From positions 1 through 55,934 of the forward strand of contig NZ_JXIQ01000085.1 of assembly GCF_000934845.1 (NCBI RefSeq): 55,934 bases of DNA, in the 5' to 3' direction. The notes under the pieces are model-generated. The model saw only the letters and a program-made list of their open reading frames with translations. It did not search any database and was not told where the DNA came from. The stretch is from Mesobacillus subterraneus (GTDB lineage Bacteria > Bacillota > Bacilli > Bacillales > Cytobacillaceae). Shown here piece by piece: positions 34,087 through 46,525 of the stretch (the first letter of the stretch is position 1; each line of letters begins with the position of its first letter). A program made the translations under genes and the position numbers.

Positions 34087-34589
34087 GTGAACTACCTCCA
34101 TTTATAGAATGGCGGCTGCCTGAATAGACAGGACCGCCGCCGCAACACTTTCTTATGATTATACCAATTCTACCAGATTAGACAAAAGAATTGGTTTTAA
34201 AGCAAGCAGGATAGGTAAAAATTAACTTTTGACAATTATGTGTCATTCATATCTTGACGTGAGGAAAGTTACTGAGTAGAAAAATGAATTAAGATAGGAT
34301 GGGTTATAGGAAAATTTTCTAAAAAAAACTTTGTTAAAGAAATAGACAATTTTCATCTATATTATTGTAACAATTACATTGGTTATCCCTAGTCATTTTC
34401 CAGTAGATTATAGGTAGAGGGGTATTAACCATTTTGGCATAGTGAAATGTTTCTTTTTATGCAGGTATGTCAAGCTCGGGTAGGATAGAGATTGCCAGTT
34501 TATAAGAAATCATCATTTCTATTAACCTAAAAGGTTGCCAATTGCTGAACGAGACCAACGGATGACCGAACAAATAAGGGGTGAAGAAC
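34087..34589 (+). promoter_or_regulatory. 500-bp leader/promoter region of the fdh-moco cluster
   Basis: No gene is seen. TTGACG (34254-34259), a 17-base spacer and TAGAAA form a candidate promoter. TGTAA-CAA-TTACA at 34365-34377 is a perfect palindrome that could be an operator. The AACC-TAAA-GGTT stem near 34530 is short. I could not recognise a molybdenum-cofactor riboswitch or an Fnr box (TGTGA-N6-TCACA). Confidence 0.35.
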
Positions 34590-35390
34590 ATGACAAAGAA
34601 AGGCCTTCCTGAGGAATATCCAATCAGCCTGATTTTGAATGGATATGAAATTGCTGTTTTTCAGCTGACAAATCTGGATCTGGAAGATTGGGTTTACGGC
34701 TACCTTTTTTCAGAAGGGTTGATCGATGGCCCAGAGGATGTTGTTAGCGTTGATATTAGGGAAAAGGCTGGCATATTGAATGTGACGTTATGCAATTCCT
34801 TCGATCCAGAACAGATGTTTTCGAAAAAGAAACACTATACAGCTGGCTGCGGCCGCGGAGTGACCTTCTTTTCAATGACGGATGTCAAAAATTTCAATAA
34901 AGTGAATTCCAATGACACCTATTCGTTGACGTATTTATTGAAAAAACGAGCGGAATTTGCGCAAAATTCCCCATTGTACCTGGAAACGGGTGGAATGCAT
35001 GGAGCCTGCCTCATTCTGGAGGATGGCAGCATCGAAGTCCGGGAAGACATCGGCAGGCATAATGCTGTTGATAAGATTATCGGACACGCAATTCGAAAGC
35101 GTTTGCAGCCAGATCGGCTCATCTTGCTTACGACCGGCAGAGTTTCTTATGAGATGCTCTCAAAAGCCGCAAAATTTGGTTTTGCCGTCATCGGTTCGCG
35201 CACAGCCGCGACTAAGCAGGCGGTTCAGCTGGCGCGATTCCTCAATATAGAAGTTGTCGGCTATCTTCGCGGCAAAATGGCGACGATTTACACATCGGCC
35301 GGGAGGATTCATGATGATTTAACTCCCCGCGCCGCTGCGGAAGACCTGCTTGAAAGGGGGGAAGCCCAGGCCCAGCAACTATTAAATTAA
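34590..35390 (+). CDS. fdhD: Formate dehydrogenase accessory sulfurtransferase FdhD
   Basis: The 266-residue protein transfers sulfur from a cysteine desulfurase to the molybdenum cofactor before its insertion into formate dehydrogenase. Family features are FSEGLIDGPEDV, the cysteine loop TAGCGRGVTFF, GGMHGACLI, EDIGRHNAVDKIIG and TTGRVSYEM. Only one cysteine is present in the loop, as in many Gram-positive forms. ATG 34590 is chosen with AAGGGGTG upstream; GTG 34581 overlaps that site. It opens the fdh-moco cluster. Confidence 0.94.
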   Translation: MTKKGLPEEYPISLILNGYEIAVFQLTNLDLEDWVYGYLFSEGLIDGPEDVVSVDIREKAGILNVTLCNSFDPEQMFSKKKHYTAGCGRGVTFFSMTDVKNFNKVNSNDTYSLTYLLKKRAEFAQNSPLYLETGGMHGACLILEDGSIEVREDIGRHNAVDKIIGHAIRKRLQPDRLILLTTGRVSYEMLSKAAKFGFAVIGSRTAATKQAVQLARFLNIEVVGYLRGKMATIYTSAGRIHDDLTPRAAAEDLLERGEAQAQQLLN

Positions 35391-35446
35391 CACTAATTTG
35401 GGGATTAAGGATGTTCAAGCAACTATTGGGAAGGAGAGAGAGAGAG

Positions 35447-38428
35447 ATGGTTGAAATCAACCTGAATCGCAGGCAGTTTCTTAAGCTGTCAGGTGCCACT
35501 GCGGCAACCCTGGCAATTGTCGAGCTCGGATTCAATGAAAAAGAAGTCCATGCGAAAACAAAAGAACTCAAGATTGCCAAAGCTACTGTAACACCAACCA
35601 TTTGTCCATACTGCGCTGTGGGCTGCGGGATTTTAGTCCATACGAAAAACAATGATGTGGTATATACGGAAGGGGATCCGGATCATCCCATCAATGAAGG
35701 AAGCCTGTGCAGCAAAGGGACAACGATCAGACAATTATTCACCTCAGAAAAGCGCGTCCTGAAGCCGCGTTACCGCGCTCCAGGCAGCGATAAGTGGGAA
35801 GAAAAAGATTGGGGATGGATGCTAGATACTATCGCCAAACGAGTGAAAGAAACACGGGACAAAACATTCGTTGAAAAATCAAACGGAATTTTTGTCAATA
35901 AAACAGAAGCGATTGCCAGTCTTGGCGGCGCAGCTCTGGATAACGAAGAAACGTATTTGCTTGCGAAAATGATGAGAGGGCTTGGTGTCACCTATTTAGA
36001 GCACCAGGCACGAATATGACACAGTTCAACGGTTGCCGGTCTGGCACCATCATTTGGTCGTGGAGCAATGACAAATCACTGGACTGATCTGCAGCATACC
36101 GATTGTGCGCTGATCATTGGTGCGAACCCTGCTGAAAACCATCCAATCAGCTTCAGATGGCTTTTAAAAGCAAGGGAAAACGGAGGGAAAATACTGTCAG
36201 TCGACCCGCGTTTCACAAGAACGTCATCTCAGGCTGATATTTATGCACCGCTTCGTTCTGGAACGGATATTCCTTTTATCGGCGGATTGATCAATTATGC
36301 GATTGAACACGATCTTGTTCACAAAGAGTATGTTGCTAAATATACAAATGCTTCCTTTATCGTCAAAGAAGGCTTCACATTCAAGGACGGCTTGTTCAGC
36401 GGATATGATCCAAAAACCCGTTCCTATGACATGGCGAGCTGGTCTTTTGAAACACAAGAAGATGGAACTCCGGTCAAGGATGAAACACTGCAGCATCCTC
36501 GCAGCGTGTTTCAGTTGCTGAAAAAGCATTATTCCCGTTATGATGTCGACTCTGTGTCAACAGTGACAGGAACACCGAAGGAAGAATACCTCAAGGTGGC
36601 AGAGGCTTACTGTGCAACAGGAAAGCCTGGAAAATCCGGTACGATCCTTTATGCGATGGGTACAACCCAGCATACGGTCGGCACCCAAAACGTTCGCTCT
36701 TATGCAATGCTGCAGCTGCTTCTTGGCAATATCGGTATGCCTGGCGGCGGAGTGAATGCACTTCGCGGCGAATCAAACGTACAGGGCTCCACCGACTTCG
36801 GTCTGTTGTTCGGGGACCTTCCAGGATATCTGGGAGCGCCGAAAGAGCAGCCAGTACACGCAACCCTTAAAGCTTATCTCGAAAAAGAAACACCTGCTGC
36901 TGGTTATTGGAGCAATAAGCCGAAATTTGTCGTCAGCCTTCTCAAGGCATGGTATGGCCCGAACGCGACGAAAGACAATGAATTCTGCTATCAGTATCTT
37001 CCAAAAGGAAACAAGAATTACTCTCATATCGCCCTGTTCAATGCCATGTATAAAGGCGAGTTGACTGGTGCATTCCTGTTTGGAACCAATCCTGTCGTCG
37101 GCGGTCCGAACGCTGGCAAGGAAAAAGAAGCACTCAGCAAGCTCGACTGGCTCGTTGCAATGGACCTTTGGGAGACAGAAACATCCGCATTCTGGCAAAA
37201 AGAAGCTGGCAGTGATCCTTCAAAAATCAACACAGAAGTGTTCCTGCTTCCGGCCGCGTCCTCCTATGAAAAAGAAGGAACGGTATCAAACAGCGGACGC
37301 TGGATGCAGTACCGCTGGAAGGCGATCGAACCTAAAGGCGAATCAAAGGCAGATATGGAAATCATCCATATGCTGATGCAAAGAATCAAAGGCCTGTATA
37401 AAAATGAAAGCTCGCCTGCTGCAAAATCGATTAATGCACTGTACTGGAATTACGGGGAACATGATCACCCAGAATTTGATCTTGTCGCCCGTGAAATCAA
37501 CGGCTATTACACGAAGACAGGCAAGCAGGTCGAGAACTTCGGCATGCTCGCAGATGACGGCTCGACATGTTCGGGAAACTGGATTTATTCAGGCTTTTAT
37601 CCGGAAGAAGGCAATCTGTCCAAGCGCCGTGACAACAAGGATAATGGCATGGGCAACTTCCTGAACTGGTCTTATGCATGGCCGATGAACCGCCGGATTC
37701 TATACAACCGAGCATCGGCAGATCCAGCTGGAAAGCCTTGGAATAAGGATAAGGCAGTCATCTGGTGGGATGCTGCTGCGAAAAAATGGACGGGACATGA
37801 TATTCCAGACTTTAAAGCGGTTGTCGCCCCAACTGATAAGGGGGGTATGAACCCATTCATCATGCTAAAGGATGGCGTCGGCGGCATGTATGCTCCAACG
37901 CTCAACGACGGACCATTCCCAGAGCATTACGAACCGTTTGAAAGTCCGGTGCCAAATGCTTTCTCTAGCCAGGAATACAATCCGACCATCAAAGTCTGGG
38001 GTGGCGACTTCAACTTAAAAGGCACGAAGAAGCAGTATCCGATCGTGGCGACAACGTACCGTGTAAGTGAACACTGGCAATCCGGTTCGATGACGCGTAA
38101 CCAGGAGTGGCTGTCAGAGCTTGCCGGACATATGTACATCGAAATGAGTGAAGAACTTGCGAAGGAAAAAGGCATCAAGAATAAGGATCAAGTCATCGTG
38201 ACATCCGCACGCGGCGAGGTTAAAGCCTATGCGATGGTAACGAAACGCTTCAAGCCGCACATGATTAATGGCAAGAAGGTGCACCAGATCGGCATGCCTT
38301 GGCACTTCGGTTTTAAAGGATATGCAACAGGGGATACAGCAAACCGCTTAACACCTCATATCGGGGACGCTAATACCATGATTCCTGAATATAAGGCATT
38401 CCTCTGCGACGTAAGGAGGGCTGACTAA
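35447..38428 (+). CDS. fdhA: Formate dehydrogenase alpha subunit, selenocysteine-containing (UGA at 36017)
   Basis: One 993-residue selenoprotein is read through an in-frame TGA at 36017-36019. The N-terminus has a Tat signal, NRRQFLKLSG. C53-x2-C56-x3-C60-x27-C88 binds a [4Fe-4S] cluster. The sequence on both sides, LEHQARI-U-HSSTVAGLAPSFGRGAMTNHW, matches E. coli FdnG around U196, so residue 191 is Sec, the molybdenum ligand. The remainder has the molybdopterin domains (GANPAENHP, GMPGGGVNALRGESNVQG, molybdopterin-binding C-terminus). It oxidises formate outside the membrane. ATG 35447 follows AAGGAG; ATG 35411 is an alternative. Read without Sec it would look like two broken genes. Confidence 0.93.
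36017..36048 (+). promoter_or_regulatory. Bacterial SECIS element of fdhA
   Basis: Counting the U of UGA as 1, G15-G16 and C31-C32 pair, U17 is bulged, UGCC (18-21) pairs with GGCA (27-30), and GGUCU (22-26) is the apical loop. E. coli fdhF has the same bulged U17 and loop G23/U24, the bases contacted by SelB, and the same GGUUGC...GGUCUG...CACC spacing. The hairpin lies within the coding sequence, as in all bacterial selenoprotein mRNAs. Confidence 0.88.
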
Positions 38429-39261
38429 TGGCAACGGCTGAATATGTAAAATTTGTCGATGTGACCAAATGTGACGGCTGTCGCGCCTGTATGGTCGCCT
38501 GCAAAAACTGGAATGACCTTCCGGCTGAGCCGGAAGCGTTCCAGGGCAGCGTCCAATCACATGCGAATGTGACAGCGAACACTTGGAATGTGCTGTCATT
38601 CATTGAACACGAGAACGGACAAGGCAATCTTGAATACCTTTTCCGCCACTCCTCCTGTTTCCATTGTACGGATGCCGCCTGCGTCAAGGTGTGTCCAGAG
38701 GATGCGATGCACTACACAGAATTTGGCACTGTCGATGTGGACAGCGATAAATGCGTCGGCTGTGGTTACTGTGTGCAGAACTGCCCATTTGATGTGGTTC
38801 AGCTGGCAACCTACAAAGATACAAACGGCAAAGAGTACAAAAAAGCACAGAAATGCACGATGTGCGTTGACCGTCTGGAAGAAGGGATGCAGCCTGCTTG
38901 TGTCACTACTTGTCATACAGACGCCATGGAGTTTGGAACAAAAGAAGAAATGCTCAAGAAAGCCGAAAAGCGCCTGAGCGAAATTAAAGAGAGATTTCCT
39001 AACGCAATGATTTACAACCCAGAAGGAGTCGGCGGTACTCATACGATTTACGTCCTTGCCGAAAAACCTTCTGTATACGGCTTGCCTGAGCAGCCGAAAG
39101 TTCCGACATCAGCGATCGTCTGGAAGGATTATGCTCAGCCAATCGGCAAAATGATGCTTGGAGCAACAAGCATGGCGCTTGTTGGTGCATTCGTCAGCAA
39201 CAAGCTGTTCAATAAAGAGGGCAAAGACCATGAAGAGGATGGAGGTGGCGGCCATGAGTAA
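38428..39261 (+). CDS. fdhB: Formate dehydrogenase beta (Fe-S) subunit
   Basis: A 277-residue electron-transfer subunit of the FdnH/FdoH type with four ferredoxin-like cysteine clusters: CDGCRACMVAC, CFHCTDAACVKVC, CVGCGYCVQNC, and CTMCVDRLEEG with a later CVTTC. They should carry four [4Fe-4S] clusters that pass electrons from the Sec subunit to the cytochrome. One membrane helix (about 235-255) anchors it. ATG overlaps the fdhA stop by one base, with GTAAGGAGGG upstream, so translation is coupled. Confidence 0.94.
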   Translation: MATAEYVKFVDVTKCDGCRACMVACKNWNDLPAEPEAFQGSVQSHANVTANTWNVLSFIEHENGQGNLEYLFRHSSCFHCTDAACVKVCPEDAMHYTEFGTVDVDSDKCVGCGYCVQNCPFDVVQLATYKDTNGKEYKKAQKCTMCVDRLEEGMQPACVTTCHTDAMEFGTKEEMLKKAEKRLSEIKERFPNAMIYNPEGVGGTHTIYVLAEKPSVYGLPEQPKVPTSAIVWKDYAQPIGKMMLGATSMALVGAFVSNKLFNKEGKDHEEDGGGGHE

Positions 39262-39961
39262 AACCCAGTATTCAGGTGTAAAAGTCAAACGCTTTTCGAA
39301 AGGCTTTGTTGTTGCGCATGCAGTGAACGCCATTTCCTTCTTCGCCCTTTATATCACGGCCTTGCCGATGTATACGGAATGGTTTGACTGGCTCTACCCT
39401 GTGCTTGGCGGTCCAGAAGGCGCCAGAAGGCTTCACAGGATTTTCGCTGTCGCGTTTATAACGCCGACTTTTATCTGGCTGATCTTGGAACCGAAAGGCC
39501 TGCTTCGCTGGGGCAAGGAACTTGTTACCTGGAAAAAGCGGGATTTACAGTTTTTCACCGAGTTCGTCAAAGAACTGTTCGGCTTTAATTTCAAACATGT
39601 GAAGCAGACTTTCTTCAATGCTGGGGAAAAAATCAACTCCATCATCCAGATTTTTACGGCGATACTGATCATCGGCTCTGGATTTCCGATGTGGTTCCCG
39701 GACTTGTTCCCGGCAGCAATCGTTCAATGGGCATATGTGGCTCATAATGTTGGCTTCGGTTTGGCGATTGCAGTCGTAGTCGGTCATATCTACCTGAGCG
39801 TCATTCACAAAAACTCTCGTCCAGGATACACTGGTGTCCTTACAGGCGAGGTTCCGGCAGAATGGGCAAAAGAACACTATACAGAATGGTATGAAGAAGA
39901 AGTCAAGAAAGGCAACTTTCCCGATCTTGACAAAGGAAAAAACAAGAAAAAAGGCGCTTAA
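39254..39961 (+). CDS. fdhC: Formate dehydrogenase cytochrome b subunit
   Basis: The 235-residue integral membrane subunit has four hydrophobic helices (about 18-38, 63-80, 130-150, 160-185). Histidines in VVAHAVNAISF, RRLHRIF, VAHNVGF and VVGHIYLSVIH are placed to ligate two b hemes. It receives electrons from FdhB and reduces menaquinone. ATG 39254, behind GGAGGTGG, overlaps fdhB by eight bases. An ATG upstream at 39158 lies inside fdhB and lacks a site. Confidence 0.92.
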   Translation: MSKTQYSGVKVKRFSKGFVVAHAVNAISFFALYITALPMYTEWFDWLYPVLGGPEGARRLHRIFAVAFITPTFIWLILEPKGLLRWGKELVTWKKRDLQFFTEFVKELFGFNFKHVKQTFFNAGEKINSIIQIFTAILIIGSGFPMWFPDLFPAAIVQWAYVAHNVGFGLAIAVVVGHIYLSVIHKNSRPGYTGVLTGEVPAEWAKEHYTEWYEEEVKKGNFPDLDKGKNKKKGA

Positions 39962-40048: not shown

Positions 40049-40858
40049 ATGAAAAAGTCCGTTGTCTCAAAAGAGTACCAGAAGCTGCAGAAGGAAATTA
40101 TTTCCTTGCAGGAACAATGGAAAACGTCCCTTGACCCTGACCGAATTCTTCCAAGGATAGATAAAGCAGCCATGGAATCAGGGGTGCCAGTCGTTGCATG
40201 GACGGCGATTGACTTTGACATACCACTATTCTTACAGTGGATAGAGGATATAGGCAAGTTATTAGCGAATTATCAACCAGAGCTAGAAAAAACAATCGAA
40301 ACAATCAAGGGGCTTTTAGATGAAGAGACAGCAAAACGCTGGATTGATGAAGCCTTTGCTTTTAACCATATTTATTTCGCCAGCTTTGCAGAGGAGCAAG
40401 AAATCGATGGATGGATTCCGCAATTTATCGCGGAAACGGTACTACGGCCTTATTTGCAGCTGACCGCGGAAAAAGTCCAGGGGGAAATTCAGTACGCCGT
40501 TCATGGCGCCGGATGCCCTGTCTGCGGAGAACCGGTCCGGCTTGCACAGCTGGAAGACGGTGGAAAAAAGGTATTGCACTGTCCGCGCTGCCTAGCCCAC
40601 TGGCATGATAAACGGATTACATGCTCCCATTGTGGCAATGAGGACCATGAAACAGTCCATTTCTTGACGATCGAAGGAGAGTCCGCCGCGCAAATCCAGG
40701 TTTGTGAAGAATGCAAAGGCTATACGAAAATAATTGATACAAGACAATATATTGTAAAGCCGACACCGGCAATGCTAGACTTGAATACAATCCACCTCGA
40801 TTTTGTAGCACAGGAAAATGGCTACAAATCCGCTGGGGAAACCAAACAGACAAATTAA
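40049..40858 (+). CDS. fdhE: Formate dehydrogenase maturation protein FdhE
   Basis: A 269-residue cytoplasmic accessory protein needed for respiratory formate dehydrogenases. The N-terminal half is helical. The C-terminal half holds four CxxC pairs (CPVC, CPRC, CSHC, CEEC at about 155-225) that bind metal in two rubredoxin-like domains, as in E. coli FdhE. Its presence fits the FdnGHI-type selenoenzyme rather than the soluble cysteine enzymes of B. subtilis. AGAGG precedes ATG 40049. Confidence 0.92.
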   Translation: MKKSVVSKEYQKLQKEIISLQEQWKTSLDPDRILPRIDKAAMESGVPVVAWTAIDFDIPLFLQWIEDIGKLLANYQPELEKTIETIKGLLDEETAKRWIDEAFAFNHIYFASFAEEQEIDGWIPQFIAETVLRPYLQLTAEKVQGEIQYAVHGAGCPVCGEPVRLAQLEDGGKKVLHCPRCLAHWHDKRITCSHCGNEDHETVHFLTIEGESAAQIQVCEECKGYTKIIDTRQYIVKPTPAMLDLNTIHLDFVAQENGYKSAGETKQTN

Positions 40859-40873: not shown

Positions 40874-41473
40874 ATGAAAGCCGGAGCGATTATTTTGGCA
40901 GGCGGCAAATCTAGCAGGATGGGAACGAACAAGGCTCTCCTGAAATTTCATGAAAAATCGAATATTGAGAGAATGAAGGATGAGTTACAACAAGTATTTG
41001 ATGATATAATTCTAGTAACGAATGATCCTGAAAGCTATCAGTTTTTACAATTGAAAAGTGTAACAGACCAGTATCCGGGTTCCGGGCCGCTTGCGGGCAT
41101 CCATGCAGGGCTGGAAGCATCAGATTACGAAGAGAATTTCATCGTAGCCTGTGATATGCCGTTTGTATCTGCAGAGCTTGCCGGAAATCTTGTAAAAGCG
41201 CTCAAGCACCACGATGCCGTTGTGCCCGTCAGTGATGGCAGGGAGCATCCGCTTTTTGCGGCGTACCAAAAACGGGTTGCCCGCGATGCGGTGAAATGCA
41301 TCGAGGACGGCAACTTAAGGATCAGGCATATGCTTGCAAAACTGGATGTTCGCTACCTCGAGGACTCAGACTTGCAGCTGTATGGCGGCAGCAATCTGGA
41401 ACGCATTTTTTTTAATATGAACCATCCCGATGAATATGAAGCTGCGAAGAAATGGATGGAATCCGGGGAATAG
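40874..41473 (+). CDS. mobA: Molybdenum cofactor guanylyltransferase
   Basis: The 199-residue nucleotidyltransferase carries ILAGGKSSRMGTNKALLKF, which binds GTP, and VACDMPFV, which holds the metal-binding Asp. It attaches GMP to molybdopterin to form the bis-guanine-dinucleotide cofactor used by formate dehydrogenase. AGAGGTG precedes the ATG. It lies 15 bases after fdhE, so the cofactor genes belong to the same operon. Confidence 0.92.
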   Translation: MKAGAIILAGGKSSRMGTNKALLKFHEKSNIERMKDELQQVFDDIILVTNDPESYQFLQLKSVTDQYPGSGPLAGIHAGLEASDYEENFIVACDMPFVSAELAGNLVKALKHHDAVVPVSDGREHPLFAAYQKRVARDAVKCIEDGNLRIRHMLAKLDVRYLEDSDLQLYGGSNLERIFFNMNHPDEYEAAKKWMESGE

Positions 41474-41503
41474 TTTCAGGTGCCAGAAAGGAAGATAGCC
41501 AGC

Positions 41504-42736
41504 ATGCAATTTTTCAAAGTGAAAACGGTTGAAGAGACATTTGCGTTAATCGATGAAAAAATTAGCAAAATCAAAGAAACCGAAGTTCGTGCGCTTGATG
41601 AATCCCTTCATTCTATCCTGGCCGAGGACATCAAGGCCGATGAGAATGTACCGGGCTTTGACCGCTCTACCGTCGATGGGTATGCGGTCATCGCCAGAGA
41701 CACCTATGGTTCATCAGAATCGATGCCTGGATTTCTGAATGTTACCGGAGAGATTCATATGGGCGAAGTGGCGGTCAAACCAGTGGGCAGGGGAGAAGCC
41801 ATTAATGTACCGACGGGCGGAATGCTTCCACCGGGCAGCGACAGCGTGCTAATGATCGAGCATTGCGAGGAAATCGGCGGGCTATTGAATACGTACAAGC
41901 AGATCGCTCCTGGCGAAAACGTTATCCGTTCAGGCGAGGATATTCGCATCGGCGAGGTGCTGTTAACCGCAGGGACGAAATTGCGGCCGCAGGAGCTGGG
42001 AGCCTTGGCGGCACTTGGTATTTCCGAGGTGAAGGTCTATCGCAAATTGAAAGCTGCTTACCTATCTTCAGGCGACGAAATCGTTCCTTTTGAAACCAAA
42101 ACACTTGAAACTGGGCAAATCCGTGACATTAACTACCTGACTGTCAAAGGCTTGGCCAATGAATGGGACATCGAGCTGATGTATGGCGGCATCACCGGCG
42201 ATGATTATCAGGAGTTTGCTAGCAAGGCACGTGAACTATATCAACAGGTGGACTGCCTTATTTTATCAGGGGGAAGTTCCGTTGGCACGAAGGACTACAC
42301 AACGGAGGTCATCCAGTCCCTTGGAGCTCCAGGCGTGTTTGTCCATGGAATCTCAATCAAGCCAGGCAAGCCGACGATTTTGGCGGTAGCAGATGGAAAG
42401 CCGGTGATTGGATTGCCGGGGCATCCGGCATCGGCAATGATCATCTTCAAGTTGTTTGGCGAACAGATCTTCCGCAGGCTAAAAGGGGAAAAAAAGGAAC
42501 AGAAGCCCGAGCGGATTTTCGCTCGGATTGTTAAAAACATCGCATCCTCAGCAGGAAGATCCGATTATATCCGGGTCAGGCTGGAAAAAAAGGATGGGGA
42601 ATGGTGGGCCGAGCCAATCATCGGCAAATCAGGGCTAATCACAACTTTGGTAAAAAGCGATGGAATCGTTGAGATTATTTCCGAAAAAGAGGGAATTTCT
42701 CAAGGCGATTACGTTCCAGTCATTTTGACGAGATAG
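41504..42736 (+). CDS. moeA: Molybdopterin molybdotransferase MoeA
   Basis: The 410-residue enzyme inserts molybdate into adenylated molybdopterin. Signature segments are FDRSTVDGYAV, NVPTGGMLPPGSDSVLMIEH, ILSGGSSVGTKDYT, GISIKPGKPTILA and GLPGHPASAMI. The MoeA domain order (N-terminal, MoCF-like and C-terminal barrel) appears complete. ATG 41504 is preferred because AAAGGAAG precedes it; GTG 41480 is an in-frame alternative. It is followed by a second moeA-like gene. Confidence 0.93.
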   Translation: MQFFKVKTVEETFALIDEKISKIKETEVRALDESLHSILAEDIKADENVPGFDRSTVDGYAVIARDTYGSSESMPGFLNVTGEIHMGEVAVKPVGRGEAINVPTGGMLPPGSDSVLMIEHCEEIGGLLNTYKQIAPGENVIRSGEDIRIGEVLLTAGTKLRPQELGALAALGISEVKVYRKLKAAYLSSGDEIVPFETKTLETGQIRDINYLTVKGLANEWDIELMYGGITGDDYQEFASKARELYQQVDCLILSGGSSVGTKDYTTEVIQSLGAPGVFVHGISIKPGKPTILAVADGKPVIGLPGHPASAMIIFKLFGEQIFRRLKGEKKEQKPERIFARIVKNIASSAGRSDYIRVRLEKKDGEWWAEPIIGKSGLITTLVKSDGIVEIISEKEGISQGDYVPVILTR

Positions 42737-42749
42737 GGGGAGCCGCATC

Positions 42750-44669
42750 ATGGATAAAATCCGCTATAACCGAAAGATTTATCTAGAAGACAAGCCGCGC
42801 GCGCAAGCAAGGGAGGAAGTCCTGTCTGCATTTGACTTGCCCCAGAAAAAGGAATGGATTCCGGCTGCTGCTGCCCTTGGCCGTATTACTGCTGAACCTG
42901 TTTTCGCCAAGGTTTCGATGCCTTTTTACCATGCATCCGCGATGGATGGAGTTGCTGTCAACGCCGAGGATACGTATGAAGCCCATGAGCAGCGCCCGCT
43001 CCAGTTAAAAAAGGATGAGCAATTCACCTATGTTGACACCGGAAATGCCATCCCTCAGGAATTTAATGCCGTCATTATGGTCGAAAACATTCATGTTATC
43101 GACGATGAGACGATCGAAATCATCGAGCCGGCAACGCCATGGCAGCATATCCGCCCGATTGGCGAGGATATCGTTCAGGAGGAAATGCTGTTCACACAGG
43201 GGCATCAGCTGCGTCCTGCCGATCTTGGCGCACTGCTTGCCGCACAGGCCACCGAGGTGTGCGTAGTGAAAAAGCCGCTTGTAACAATCATTCCAACAGG
43301 AAATGAACTGGTCAGCGCAGATGCATCGCTGTCGTCAGGCCGAATCATCGAGTTCAATGGCACCGTTTTTAGCGCTTATGTAGAAGATTGGGGCGGCCAG
43401 CCTTTGTTGCATCCGATCGTTAAGGATGAACCGGAAAAAATTAGAGAAGCATTGCTGAACGCGGCTGACACATCTGAAATCGTTGTGATCAACGCAGGTT
43501 CTTCTGCAGGTTCAAAGGATTATACGGTACACATTCTGGAGGAGCTTGGCACTGTTTTTACCCATGGTGTTGCGACAAGGCCGGGCAAGCCTGTCATTTT
43601 GGGAAAAATAAAAGAGAAAGTGGTCGTAGGGGTTCCGGGTTATCCGGTTTCGGCCTATATGGCATTAGAGTGGTTTGTCAGGCCGCTCATTTGCAAGTAT
43701 CTAGGGGTCCAAGAGCCAGAACGGGCAAAGCTGAAAGTCAAGCTTGGCCGCAGGATTGTCTCCACGATGGGGGCAGAGGACTTTGTCCGAATGAATATCG
43801 GCTATGTGAATGGACAATTTGTCGCCAATCCGCTGACGCGTGCGGCGGGCGTTACGATGTCGCTCGTGCGCGCAGACGGCTTGCTCGTCGTGCCGCCGGA
43901 AGAGTTGGGATACGAACAGGGAGATACTGTCGAGGTTGAGCTTTACAGACCGGTGGAAGAGATAAAAAATGCAATCGTCTTCAGCGGCAGCCATGACATG
44001 ACAATAGACCTGCTATCCTCCCAGCTCAAAAATCAGCGCACCGACATGAAAATTGTTTCTTCCCATGTTGGCAGCATGGCCGGTTTGATGGCAATCAGAA
44101 AAGGGGAAGCCCATGTAGCGGGCATTCATTTGCTTGACCCAGAGACAAAGGAATATAATATTACCTATGTAAGGAAATTACTTGCTGGGCAAGACGCAGT
44201 CCTTTACCCCTTCTTGAAGAGAACGCAAGGCTGGATGCTTCCAAAAGGCAATCCGCTCGGAATTGAACATGTCAGCGACATCGCCGCGAAGAATGCCGAT
44301 TATGCCAACAGGCAAAAAGGTGCCGGTACTCGTATATTGTTCGATTTATTGTTACGAGAAGCTGGCCTCGACGCAGACCAGATCAATGGGTATGACCGTG
44401 AAATGTTCTCCCATTTAAGCGTCGCTGCTGAAGTAAAGGGAAACGACAATGCCGCCGGACTCGGGATCTACCCGGCTGCCCGGGCAATGGGACTCGACTT
44501 CATCCCGGTTGCAGACGAAAGCTATGATTTGCTGATGACAAAAGCATTTTTCGAAAGTGAAAAGGGAAGATGGTTAACATCGGTGATTCAATCACACGCC
44601 TTCCAATTAGAAGTCGACAAAATCGGCGGATACGCTGTCGTCGAAAATCCTCAACCTATATATTTTTAA
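42750..44669 (+). CDS. MoeA-like protein fused to a periplasmic-binding-protein-like domain
   Basis: This 639-residue protein has a complete MoeA-like part (about 1-405: YHASAMDGVAVNAED, NAGSSAGSKDYT, GVATRPGKPVILG, GVPGYPVSAYMALEW) joined to a C-terminal binding-protein-like domain (about 410-639: GSHDMTIDLLSSQL, GSMAGLMAIRKGEAHVAGIHL). The second part resembles the molybdate or LysR-type substrate domain found in such fusions. It may sense or deliver molybdate or act in tungsten use. No signal peptide exists, so that domain is cytoplasmic. It lies 13 bases after moeA. Confidence 0.88.
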   Translation: MDKIRYNRKIYLEDKPRAQAREEVLSAFDLPQKKEWIPAAAALGRITAEPVFAKVSMPFYHASAMDGVAVNAEDTYEAHEQRPLQLKKDEQFTYVDTGNAIPQEFNAVIMVENIHVIDDETIEIIEPATPWQHIRPIGEDIVQEEMLFTQGHQLRPADLGALLAAQATEVCVVKKPLVTIIPTGNELVSADASLSSGRIIEFNGTVFSAYVEDWGGQPLLHPIVKDEPEKIREALLNAADTSEIVVINAGSSAGSKDYTVHILEELGTVFTHGVATRPGKPVILGKIKEKVVVGVPGYPVSAYMALEWFVRPLICKYLGVQEPERAKLKVKLGRRIVSTMGAEDFVRMNIGYVNGQFVANPLTRAAGVTMSLVRADGLLVVPPEELGYEQGDTVEVELYRPVEEIKNAIVFSGSHDMTIDLLSSQLKNQRTDMKIVSSHVGSMAGLMAIRKGEAHVAGIHLLDPETKEYNITYVRKLLAGQDAVLYPFLKRTQGWMLPKGNPLGIEHVSDIAAKNADYANRQKGAGTRILFDLLLREAGLDADQINGYDREMFSHLSVAAEVKGNDNAAGLGIYPAARAMGLDFIPVADESYDLLMTKAFFESEKGRWLTSVIQSHAFQLEVDKIGGYAVVENPQPIYF

Positions 44670-45505: not shown

Positions 45506-46525
45506 ATGTCAGAAAGGTATTCACGCCAGACGCTGTTTCCTCCAATAGGAAAATCTGGACAGGAAAAAATTCGCAGCAAGCATGTGCTGATGATTGGTGC
45601 AGGTGCTTTAGGATCAGGAAACGCCGAGCTGCTAGTGAGAGCTGGGATCGGCCGTCTGACGATAGTCGACCGTGATTATATCGAAGCAAGCAATCTGCAA
45701 AGACAGCAATTATACACCGAAGAGGATGTCGCTCAGAAGCTTCCCAAGGCTGCCGCAGCTGAAAAAAGACTGAAAGCCATCAATTCTGATGTGGAGATCC
45801 GTGCCTTGATCGCAGATGCCACTCCTGAAAAACTGGAGGAGCTAGTCGATGGTGTCGATTTAATCATCGATGCGACGGATAATTTTGAAACAAGAATGGC
45901 GATTAATGATATTTCGCAAAAGTACCAGATTCCGTGGATTTATGGTGCCTGTGTCGCCAGCTTTGGCATGAGTTTCTCGATCATTCCTGGAAAAACGCCA
46001 TGTCTAAACTGCTTGCTGAAGACGATGCCGCTGCAAGGGATGACTTGCGACACAGGTGGCATCATTGGGCCTGCCGTACAAATGGTCATCGCCCATCAAG
46101 GCAGCGAAGCACTGAAAATTCTTGTCGAAGACTGGGATGCGCTCAGAACTTCTTTTGTCAGCTTTGATCTGTGGCGAAATCAGTATGCAAGCATGAAAAT
46201 GTCAAAAGCGAAGGATTCTGGCTGCCTCTCCTGCGGCGAAAATCCGACCTACCCTTATTTGGATGCGGAAAATAGGACGAAAACGACGGTTCTGTGCGGA
46301 CGGGATACAGTCCAGGTTAGACCGCCGAAGCAGCAGCAGCTGAACCTTCAGGAAACGGCTGAAAAAATGAGGGATTTGGGTTATCAAGTAAAAGCGAACC
46401 CCTATCTAGTATCGGTCGAAATAGACGAAAACAGGATGGTCATTTTCCAAGACGGCCGAGCATTAATCCACGGGACGAAGGATTTGGCACAGGCACGCAG
46501 CATCTATCAGCGGTTTTTAGGCTAG
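45506..46525 (+). CDS. moeB: Molybdopterin-synthase adenylyltransferase MoeB (ThiF family)
   Basis: The 339-residue E1-like enzyme activates the MoaD C-terminus with ATP. It has the nucleotide motif GAGALGSGNAELLVRAG, the strand DRDYIEASNLQRQ, and two cysteine pairs (CLNC, CLSC) that bind zinc. The 80-residue C-terminal extension (GRDTVQVRPP through IHGTKDLAQAR) is the form found in Bacillus MoeB and ThiF. Adjacency to moaD decides for MoeB. CAGGAGG precedes the ATG. It ends the cofactor operon at a strong terminator. Confidence 0.91.
   Translation: MSERYSRQTLFPPIGKSGQEKIRSKHVLMIGAGALGSGNAELLVRAGIGRLTIVDRDYIEASNLQRQQLYTEEDVAQKLPKAAAAEKRLKAINSDVEIRALIADATPEKLEELVDGVDLIIDATDNFETRMAINDISQKYQIPWIYGACVASFGMSFSIIPGKTPCLNCLLKTMPLQGMTCDTGGIIGPAVQMVIAHQGSEALKILVEDWDALRTSFVSFDLWRNQYASMKMSKAKDSGCLSCGENPTYPYLDAENRTKTTVLCGRDTVQVRPPKQQQLNLQETAEKMRDLGYQVKANPYLVSVEIDENRMVIFQDGRALIHGTKDLAQARSIYQRFLG

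Follow-up and report, generated by a model that had tools for sequence, protein, structure and literature searches.

An FdnG-type formate dehydrogenase gene of Mesobacillus subterraneus with an internal TGA that is very probably read as selenocysteine

Formate dehydrogenases related to the Mesobacillus enzyme

Among the systems closest to the locus described here is formate dehydrogenase-N (FDH-N; FdnGHI; 1kqf_A) of Escherichia coli. The locus lies in a 55,934-nucleotide stretch of Mesobacillus subterraneus DNA, hereafter the window, which was analysed as a whole. Its fdnG gene encodes a catalytic subunit of the same family as E. coli FdnG, with UGA at the same place and with the His and Arg that follow it. 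The two systems also share a Tat signal, iron–sulphur and cytochrome b partners, and a hairpin immediately 3′ of the UGA. The two FdnG proteins are identical at 466 of 976 aligned residues, and the hairpin letters are GGTAGCAAGTCTTGCTCC in E. coli compared with GGTTGCCGGTCTGGCACC in the window. The window departs from the E. coli system in that its beta and gamma subunits score under the formate dehydrogenase (FDH) cut-offs, and in that an fdhE-like gene and molybdenum cofactor genes directly follow.

The solved structures that best match window FdnG are the selenocysteine (Sec) FDHs 1h0h, 6sdr and their relatives, which are presumably Desulfovibrio enzymes; they align across the Sec site, and the likeness concerns the catalytic subunit only. 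In the top-matching chain, 1h0h, a modified residue occupies the Sec site, and the next eleven chains are named as selenocysteine-containing FDHs. FdnG proteins in records of Syntrophomonas, Thermosyntropha and Thermincola (among loci L106–L130) are 52–62% identical to that of the window. Nearly all of those read have TGA at the site, and L109, L110, L111 and L116 carry the same GGTTGCCGGTCTGGCACC letters as the window. Several appear by eye to have another hairpin layout, and two (L113 and L130) are cysteine (Cys) versions, unlike the window.

Bacillus subtilis has ForCE1 and ForCE2 (YjgC/YrhE). Passages of PMC8808070 describe electron transfer from formate to menaquinone by these enzymes, as is proposed below for the window. 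According to the same passages, the enzymes lack hemes and predicted transmembrane segments, pair with a different subunit and have Gln in place of the active-site His. YjgC is a much weaker match to window FdnG (202.0 bits) than is the best solved chain (1078.3 bits).

Gene structure and reading frame of fdnG

The source genome is a 3.90-Mb draft assembly (99.99% complete, 0.61% contaminated), and the window corresponds to contig 23 of its 208 contigs. An open reading frame (ORF) listing made under standard rules splits fdnG (35447..38428, + strand) into 35411–36019 and 36068–38428. The original prediction, made from the letters of the window, held that these apparent two genes are one catalytic subunit, and the present analysis bears this out. 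The frame is identical 5′ and 3′ of the TGA at 36017..36019 (+ strand), and a domain search identified the two halves as complementary portions of a single enzyme, with the Tat signal and Fe4S4 domains before the TGA and those for molybdopterin and dinucleotide binding beyond it. Translation of 35447–38428 with TGA as Sec yields 993 residues with a single internal TGA, at residue 191. NCBI holds a curated model for full-length FdnG, TIGR01553 (FDH-N alpha), against which the joined protein scores 1325.6 bits over residues 6–990 (cut-off 814.2). The individual domain matches are TAT_signal (26.7 bits, cut-off 22.7; NRRQFLK in the N-terminal translation), Molybdop_Fe4S4 (79.1 bits), Molybdopterin and Molydop_binding. 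The start at 35447 is favoured over the upstream ATG at 35411 because it is preceded by GGAAGGAG.

The TGA had also been predicted to fall at the Sec position of FdnG-type enzymes, between conserved residues. Residues U196, H197 and R446 of E. coli K-12 FdnG align with window residues 191, 192 and 440, in agreement with the predicted Sec position. The three E. coli residues are taken here to be the metal ligand, the His and the distal Arg of the active site. With a Sec/Cys ligand position followed by His, a distal Arg and an Fe4S4 domain, window FdnG fits the FDH-N catalytic subunit. Positions 35447–38428 very probably constitute one intact FdnG-type FDH gene, whose internal TGA would be read as Sec in a SelB- and SECIS-dependent manner. 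The enzyme belongs to a known type: an FdnG exported by the Tat system, accompanied by FdnH-like and FdnI-like subunits and presumably quinone-linked.

The SECIS hairpin and its conservation

The Rfam model for a bacterial SECIS element (SECIS_3, RF01989) matches at 36014..36072 (+ strand), positioned at the fdnG UGA, with 65.1 bits (gathering cut-off 63; E 5.7e-14). In the fold, the apical hairpin at 36031..36048 (+ strand) is formed by GGU-U-GCC, the loop GGUCU and GGC-ACC, with one bulged U. When 150 of 518 candidates in the source genome were scored with SECIS_3, the fdnG copy was the sole match above the cut-off. Sub-threshold scores were 18.6 bits for an FDH paralogue on contig C52 and 17.8 bits for another place in the window's contig, and an FDH paralogue on contig C4 had no listed match among these scored candidates.

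Conservation was followed in 101 full-length rows, corresponding to 91 distinct proteins, of which 71 combine TGA with an identity of at least 63%. Synonymous entropy was scored on degenerate codons at which at least 95% of these 71 rows share the amino acid. Across the seven hairpin codons (195–201), the mean normalised synonymous entropy is 0.059, compared with 0.747 for 391 other conserved codons. The span starting at codon 195 has the lowest value of 185 such spans, so that the hairpin is frozen at its silent sites. The 18 hairpin letters are identical in 68 of the 71 distinct TGA rows, and in the remaining three a one-base change retains the pair.

Taking all distinct TGA rows together, six of six hairpin pairs are formed in 77 of 87, five in one and four in nine. 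The ten rows with fewer than six pairs, counted in the window's register, comprise eight from Syntrophomonadaceae/Gelria, an Eisenbacteria MAG (L134) and a distant copy from the window's own family (L145). In the four distinct Cys rows, 2, 2, 3 and 4 of the six pairs remain. The contrast between Sec and Cys is clear within the Bacillaceae (six pairs versus two and two), but not in the Syntrophomonas group, where the pair count fails to separate them because the Cys row L130 also keeps four.

Paralogous FDHs were located by protein similarity, and their hairpins were then read directly. Two further FDHs of the source genome, on contigs C52 (L138, near 634) and C4 (L139, near 1596), carry TGA in frame at the equivalent position; both show GGUCU hairpins that fall below the SECIS_3 cut-off. 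Among the listed paralogous fragments that contain a single TGA and are about 30% identical, the loop GGUCU and fully paired stems are present in 27 of 27, two from the source genome and 25 from the genus. Fragment L151 also gave a second, chance pattern match that lacked this loop, and that match is not counted among the 27. Nineteen fragments have the six-base stem GTCGCC/GGCGAC, seven have GTCACC/GGTGAC and one has GTTGCC/GGCGAC. By eye, the G–C to A–U exchange in the paralogue stem is compensated although each side alters an amino acid; this covariation may represent a single event between two paralogue groups (19 and 7 fragments).

Selenocysteine machinery in the source genome

A genome-wide search for the Sec machinery had been put forward as a check on the selenoprotein reading. 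The bacterial Sec-decoding trait is complete in the source genome, with selA, selB, selD and tRNA-Sec each found above the curated cut-off. The tRNA-Sec lies on contig C45 (13215–13307) and scores 58 bits against a cut-off of 47; ARAGORN reports it as tRNA-SeC with anticodon tca, and its predicted fold has a 7-pair acceptor stem. The matches for selA (contig C142) and selB (contig C52) score 556 and 368 bits, respectively, the latter with SelB-wing_2 and SelB-wing_3 domains. The selD match scores 394 bits, and the gene itself contains an in-frame TGA, within a U-G-C-K motif. Contig C205 carries the selenouridine synthase YbbB (318.6 bits).

Fourteen well-known genomes served as controls, in which the models exceeded their cut-offs once for selA, twice for selB, twice for selD, once for YbbB and five times for tRNA-Sec; with matches in five of the 14, the tRNA-Sec model lacks specificity when used by itself. 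Three controls without a selA match, Caulobacter vibrioides, Thermus composti and Thermotoga maritima, exceeded the cut-off of this model (RF01852). Within the genus, tRNA-Sec is above the cut-off in 20 of 21 genomes, and the one miss (G010) is a genome of 66% completeness. Genome G006 has two such matches on contig C332, at 395489–395581 and 406070–406162, about 10 kb apart, scoring 50.9 and 56.1 bits.

In the source genome, selD (L021, contig C142) adjoins selA on the opposite strand, and its TGA is near the start of the gene. The selD hairpin has the loop GGUUC, not GGUCU, at a greater distance from the UGA.

Conservation of the Sec site and alternative readings

The related loci number 103, including the best 80 of 299 confirmed, and some of them show one gene twice. 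The Sec site is spanned by 101 of these (L129 and L132 fall short), and its codon is TGA in 98, TGT in two and TGC in one. This recurrence, taken with the E value of the SECIS match, argues against an in-frame TGA by chance. For close strains, in which a Cys codon or inactivation had been named as possible counter-evidence, TGA was found in 23 of 23 same-genus loci (L025–L047, from 21 genomes). The fdnG gene is present in all 21 genomes and is unbroken save for the TGA in 19; it is split in G001 and G020. In G020, where some other FDH frames are short too, the split is possibly an assembly error.

The nearest named records are those of Cytobacillus oceanisediminis (96%), Chryseobacterium sp. 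ISL-80 (96%) and M. subterraneus (93%). The Chryseobacterium record (L107), whose FdnG shares this 96% identity with that of the window, is mislabelled or contaminated. Another record (L069), titled Paenibacillus sp. BSR1-1, is placed among Neobacillus in the tree.

Eight pairs of sequences were tried for dN/dS, one of which was skipped because a row in it had been removed as a duplicate, and three of the remaining seven were saturated in dS after the TGA. The four usable pairs gave dN/dS values after the TGA of 0.053, 0.084, 0.088 and 0.059, with dS above 1 in three of the four. The half of fdnG after the TGA is under purifying selection. Overall, the comparative evidence for recoding of the fdnG TGA is strong.

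Three other explanations of the interrupted frame were weighed. A pseudogene reading, with the TGA due either to a nonsense mutation that inactivates the gene or to faulty sequencing, and with decay of the downstream half, would be in keeping with a standard-rule ORF that terminates at 36019 and with the additional breaks in the two same-genus assemblies. It is highly improbable, however, given that TGA occupies the same codon in nearly all loci, that the downstream half is constrained in every usable pair, that maturation genes are retained around fdnG and that the silent sites of the hairpin do not vary freely. Two separate products, a short N-terminal Fe4S4 protein ending at the TGA and a C-terminal molybdopterin protein beginning at ATG 36068, would correspond to ORFs that both exist mechanically. 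Such an arrangement has no need for the TGA codon itself to be conserved, and a start at 36068 loses residues 191 and 192, the counterparts of E. coli U196 and H197. A GGAG lies just two bases 5′ of that ATG, which is too near for a normal ribosome site. Separate translation of the two halves is very hard to credit.

Genome-wide reassignment of TGA, for example to Trp, with no selenium involved, would equally keep the frame open when TGA is read as a residue. Against it, TGA terminates 5 of the 32 window ORFs taken as genes, the codon changes in relatives lead to Cys, not Trp, and the full Sec machinery is present, which leaves reassignment with an almost negligible probability. The pseudogene, two-protein and genome-wide recoding readings were all rejected on conservation, selection, TGA stops and machinery. 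The Sec reading of a single intact fdnG is the one followed below.

Neighbouring genes and proposed mechanism

The flanking genes from fdhD to the second moeA-like gene are all on the + strand. The gene for the FDH accessory sulfurtransferase, fdhD (34581..35390), scores 169.5 bits against TIGR00129 (cut-off 140.9). An fdnH-like gene for an iron–sulphur subunit (38428..39261) has TIGR01582 as its best NCBIfam match, at 239.1 bits, below the cut-off of 334.7. An fdnI-like gene for a cytochrome b subunit follows (39254..39961; Ni_hydr_CYTB, 62 bits), with TIGR01583 as best NCBIfam match at 88.3 bits, below the cut-off of 115.85; its start was set by eye at an ATG overlapping the end of fdnH, and the ORF was listed from TTG 39158. 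As these partners score below the cut-offs of the FDH models TIGR01582 and TIGR01583, the products are described as FdnG accompanied by FdnH-like and FdnI-like subunits, not as an FdnGHI complex.

Further downstream are genes for an FdhE-like FDH accessory protein (40049..40858; TIGR01562, 57 bits, below the cut-off of 187.65) and a MobA-like molybdenum cofactor guanylyltransferase (40874..41473). The latter is below the cut-offs of both TIGR02665 (113.3 bits; cut-off 151.85) and its best match NF011056 (179.1 bits; cut-off 379). They are followed by a moeA-like molybdopterin molybdotransferase gene (41480..42736; NF011068, 402.5 bits, below the cut-off of 534) and a gene for a second, longer MoeA-like protein of 639 residues (42750..44669), which scores 729.1 bits against the same model and covers positions 2–640 of 647. 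In the tandem moeA-like pair (41480–44669) the second gene is the longer, and most related Bacillaceae loci show the pair in this arrangement. A MoeB/ThiF family adenylyltransferase gene lies downstream of the cluster at 45506–46525, about 7 kb past fdnG.

When the window neighbours were compared by tblastn with 80 related loci, matches were found for fdnH in 80, fdhE in 76, fdnI in 74, mobA in 61 and fdhD in 60. Each moeA matched in 69, a count that includes cross-matches between the moeA genes and out-of-cluster matches in Syntrophomonas loci. A pyridoxal/HMP kinase gene upstream of the fdnG cluster matched in 48. Nearly all Bacillaceae loci show the gene order seen in the window.

Sequence analysis shows the gene structure, the SECIS element, the machinery and the selective constraint, and the following mechanism is proposed. 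During translation of fdnG, the UGA at 36017 would be bypassed as a stop. By analogy with known families, the hairpin just 3′ of it would be bound by the elongation factor SelB, which would deliver Sec-tRNA; SelA would convert seryl-tRNA-Sec with selenophosphate from SelD. Selenium would thereby be incorporated at residue 191, as in known families, and Sec191 would act as the Mo/W ligand beside His192 and Arg440. FdhD, the FdhE-like and MobA-like proteins and the two MoeA-like proteins may mature the enzyme and its cofactor. The Tat-exported FdnG would oxidise formate outside the cytoplasmic membrane, and electrons would pass through the fdnH-like iron–sulphur subunit and the fdnI-like cytochrome b to menaquinone. 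Because the FdnH-, FdnI- and FdhE-like proteins score below the FDH cut-offs, this electron path is inferred from known families.

Selenocysteine use across the family

The original prediction stated that most Bacillus species, B. subtilis among them, lack selenocysteine. The control genome of B. subtilis had no selA and no tRNA-Sec match; in the window's family at large, selA was found in 172 of 193 genomes (E <=1e-60). The reading as a selenoprotein FDH is supported, with its rarity overstated; the feature is typical of its family, and Sec use is the norm there. One genus (g20) accounts for 13 of the 21 genomes without selA. An FdnG-type FDH was found in 121 of the 193 genomes (E <=1e-200), and FDH and selA occur together in 119. 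Two genomes have the FDH only (G179, 81% complete; G183, 80% complete), 53 have selA only and 19 have neither. Fisher's test for co-occurrence gives p 1.4e-7, a value that is descriptive only because the genomes are related. A listed row holding an in-frame TGA is present for 119 of the 121 FDH genomes, and in the other two (G001 and G101) the listed match starts past residue 191. The exact position of the codon was read in the 101 site-spanning loci and six added stretches.

Passages of PMC1794560 count three selenoproteins in Firmicutes/Bacillales. In the one library searched, no paper was found that pairs Mesobacillus with selenocysteine, and Neobacillus was not found among the listed literature matches. 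A term search of PMC13188914, PMC5330540 and PMC12013277 found nothing on Bacillus or the higher taxa that contain it. Unlike B. subtilis, the usual representative of the genus, many Bacillaceae have the Sec system, and the formate metabolism of these bacteria should therefore depend on selenium supply. A gene finder that treats TGA as a stop would split the key enzyme FdnG in two.

Replacement of selenocysteine by cysteine

The six added stretches have Cys in G184 (contig C60) and G026 (contig C159) and TGA in G184 (contigs C40 and C11), G026 (contig C144) and G020. The G026 Cys locus (L142) and L094 are apparently one gene, since their contigs are equally long and their letters at the site match. 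A FastTree tree of the 91 rows was built with column 191 masked and rooted at the midpoint; L145 and L106 form long branches. The four Cys rows correspond to three changes on this tree, one shared by L140 and L094 in the Bacillaceae and one each in L113 and L130 in the Syntrophomonadaceae. The nesting and the midpoint root point to a direction from Sec to Cys. Such a replacement is described for FdhA in passages of PMC1794560.

The chances are judged about even for a wider scenario. In it, Sec decoding is ancestral and standard in the family (Mesobacillus, Neobacillus and kin), is kept by several Sec FDHs and SelD, and has been lost in certain genera. At least one lineage would have exchanged Sec for Cys in FdnG while retaining the machinery and Sec copies, so that both FDHs are present in one cell.

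In G026 (88% complete, 4% contamination), the Cys and TGA copies lie on contigs of 4.3 and 8.8 kb, and the case for coexistence there is weak because both contigs are short. In G184 (100% complete, 2% contamination), the Cys copy occupies a contig of 229 kb, whereas the TGA copies are a distant one (47–49%) on a contig of 635 kb and a closer one (67%) on a contig of 6.7 kb. True coexistence of Sec and Cys copies would offer a natural comparison of both chemistries in one genome. Replacement by Cys where TGA copies persist in the genome is mildly notable; in both L140 (G184) and L142 (G026), the Cys FdnG gene has a degraded hairpin, and the assembly also contains TGA copies.
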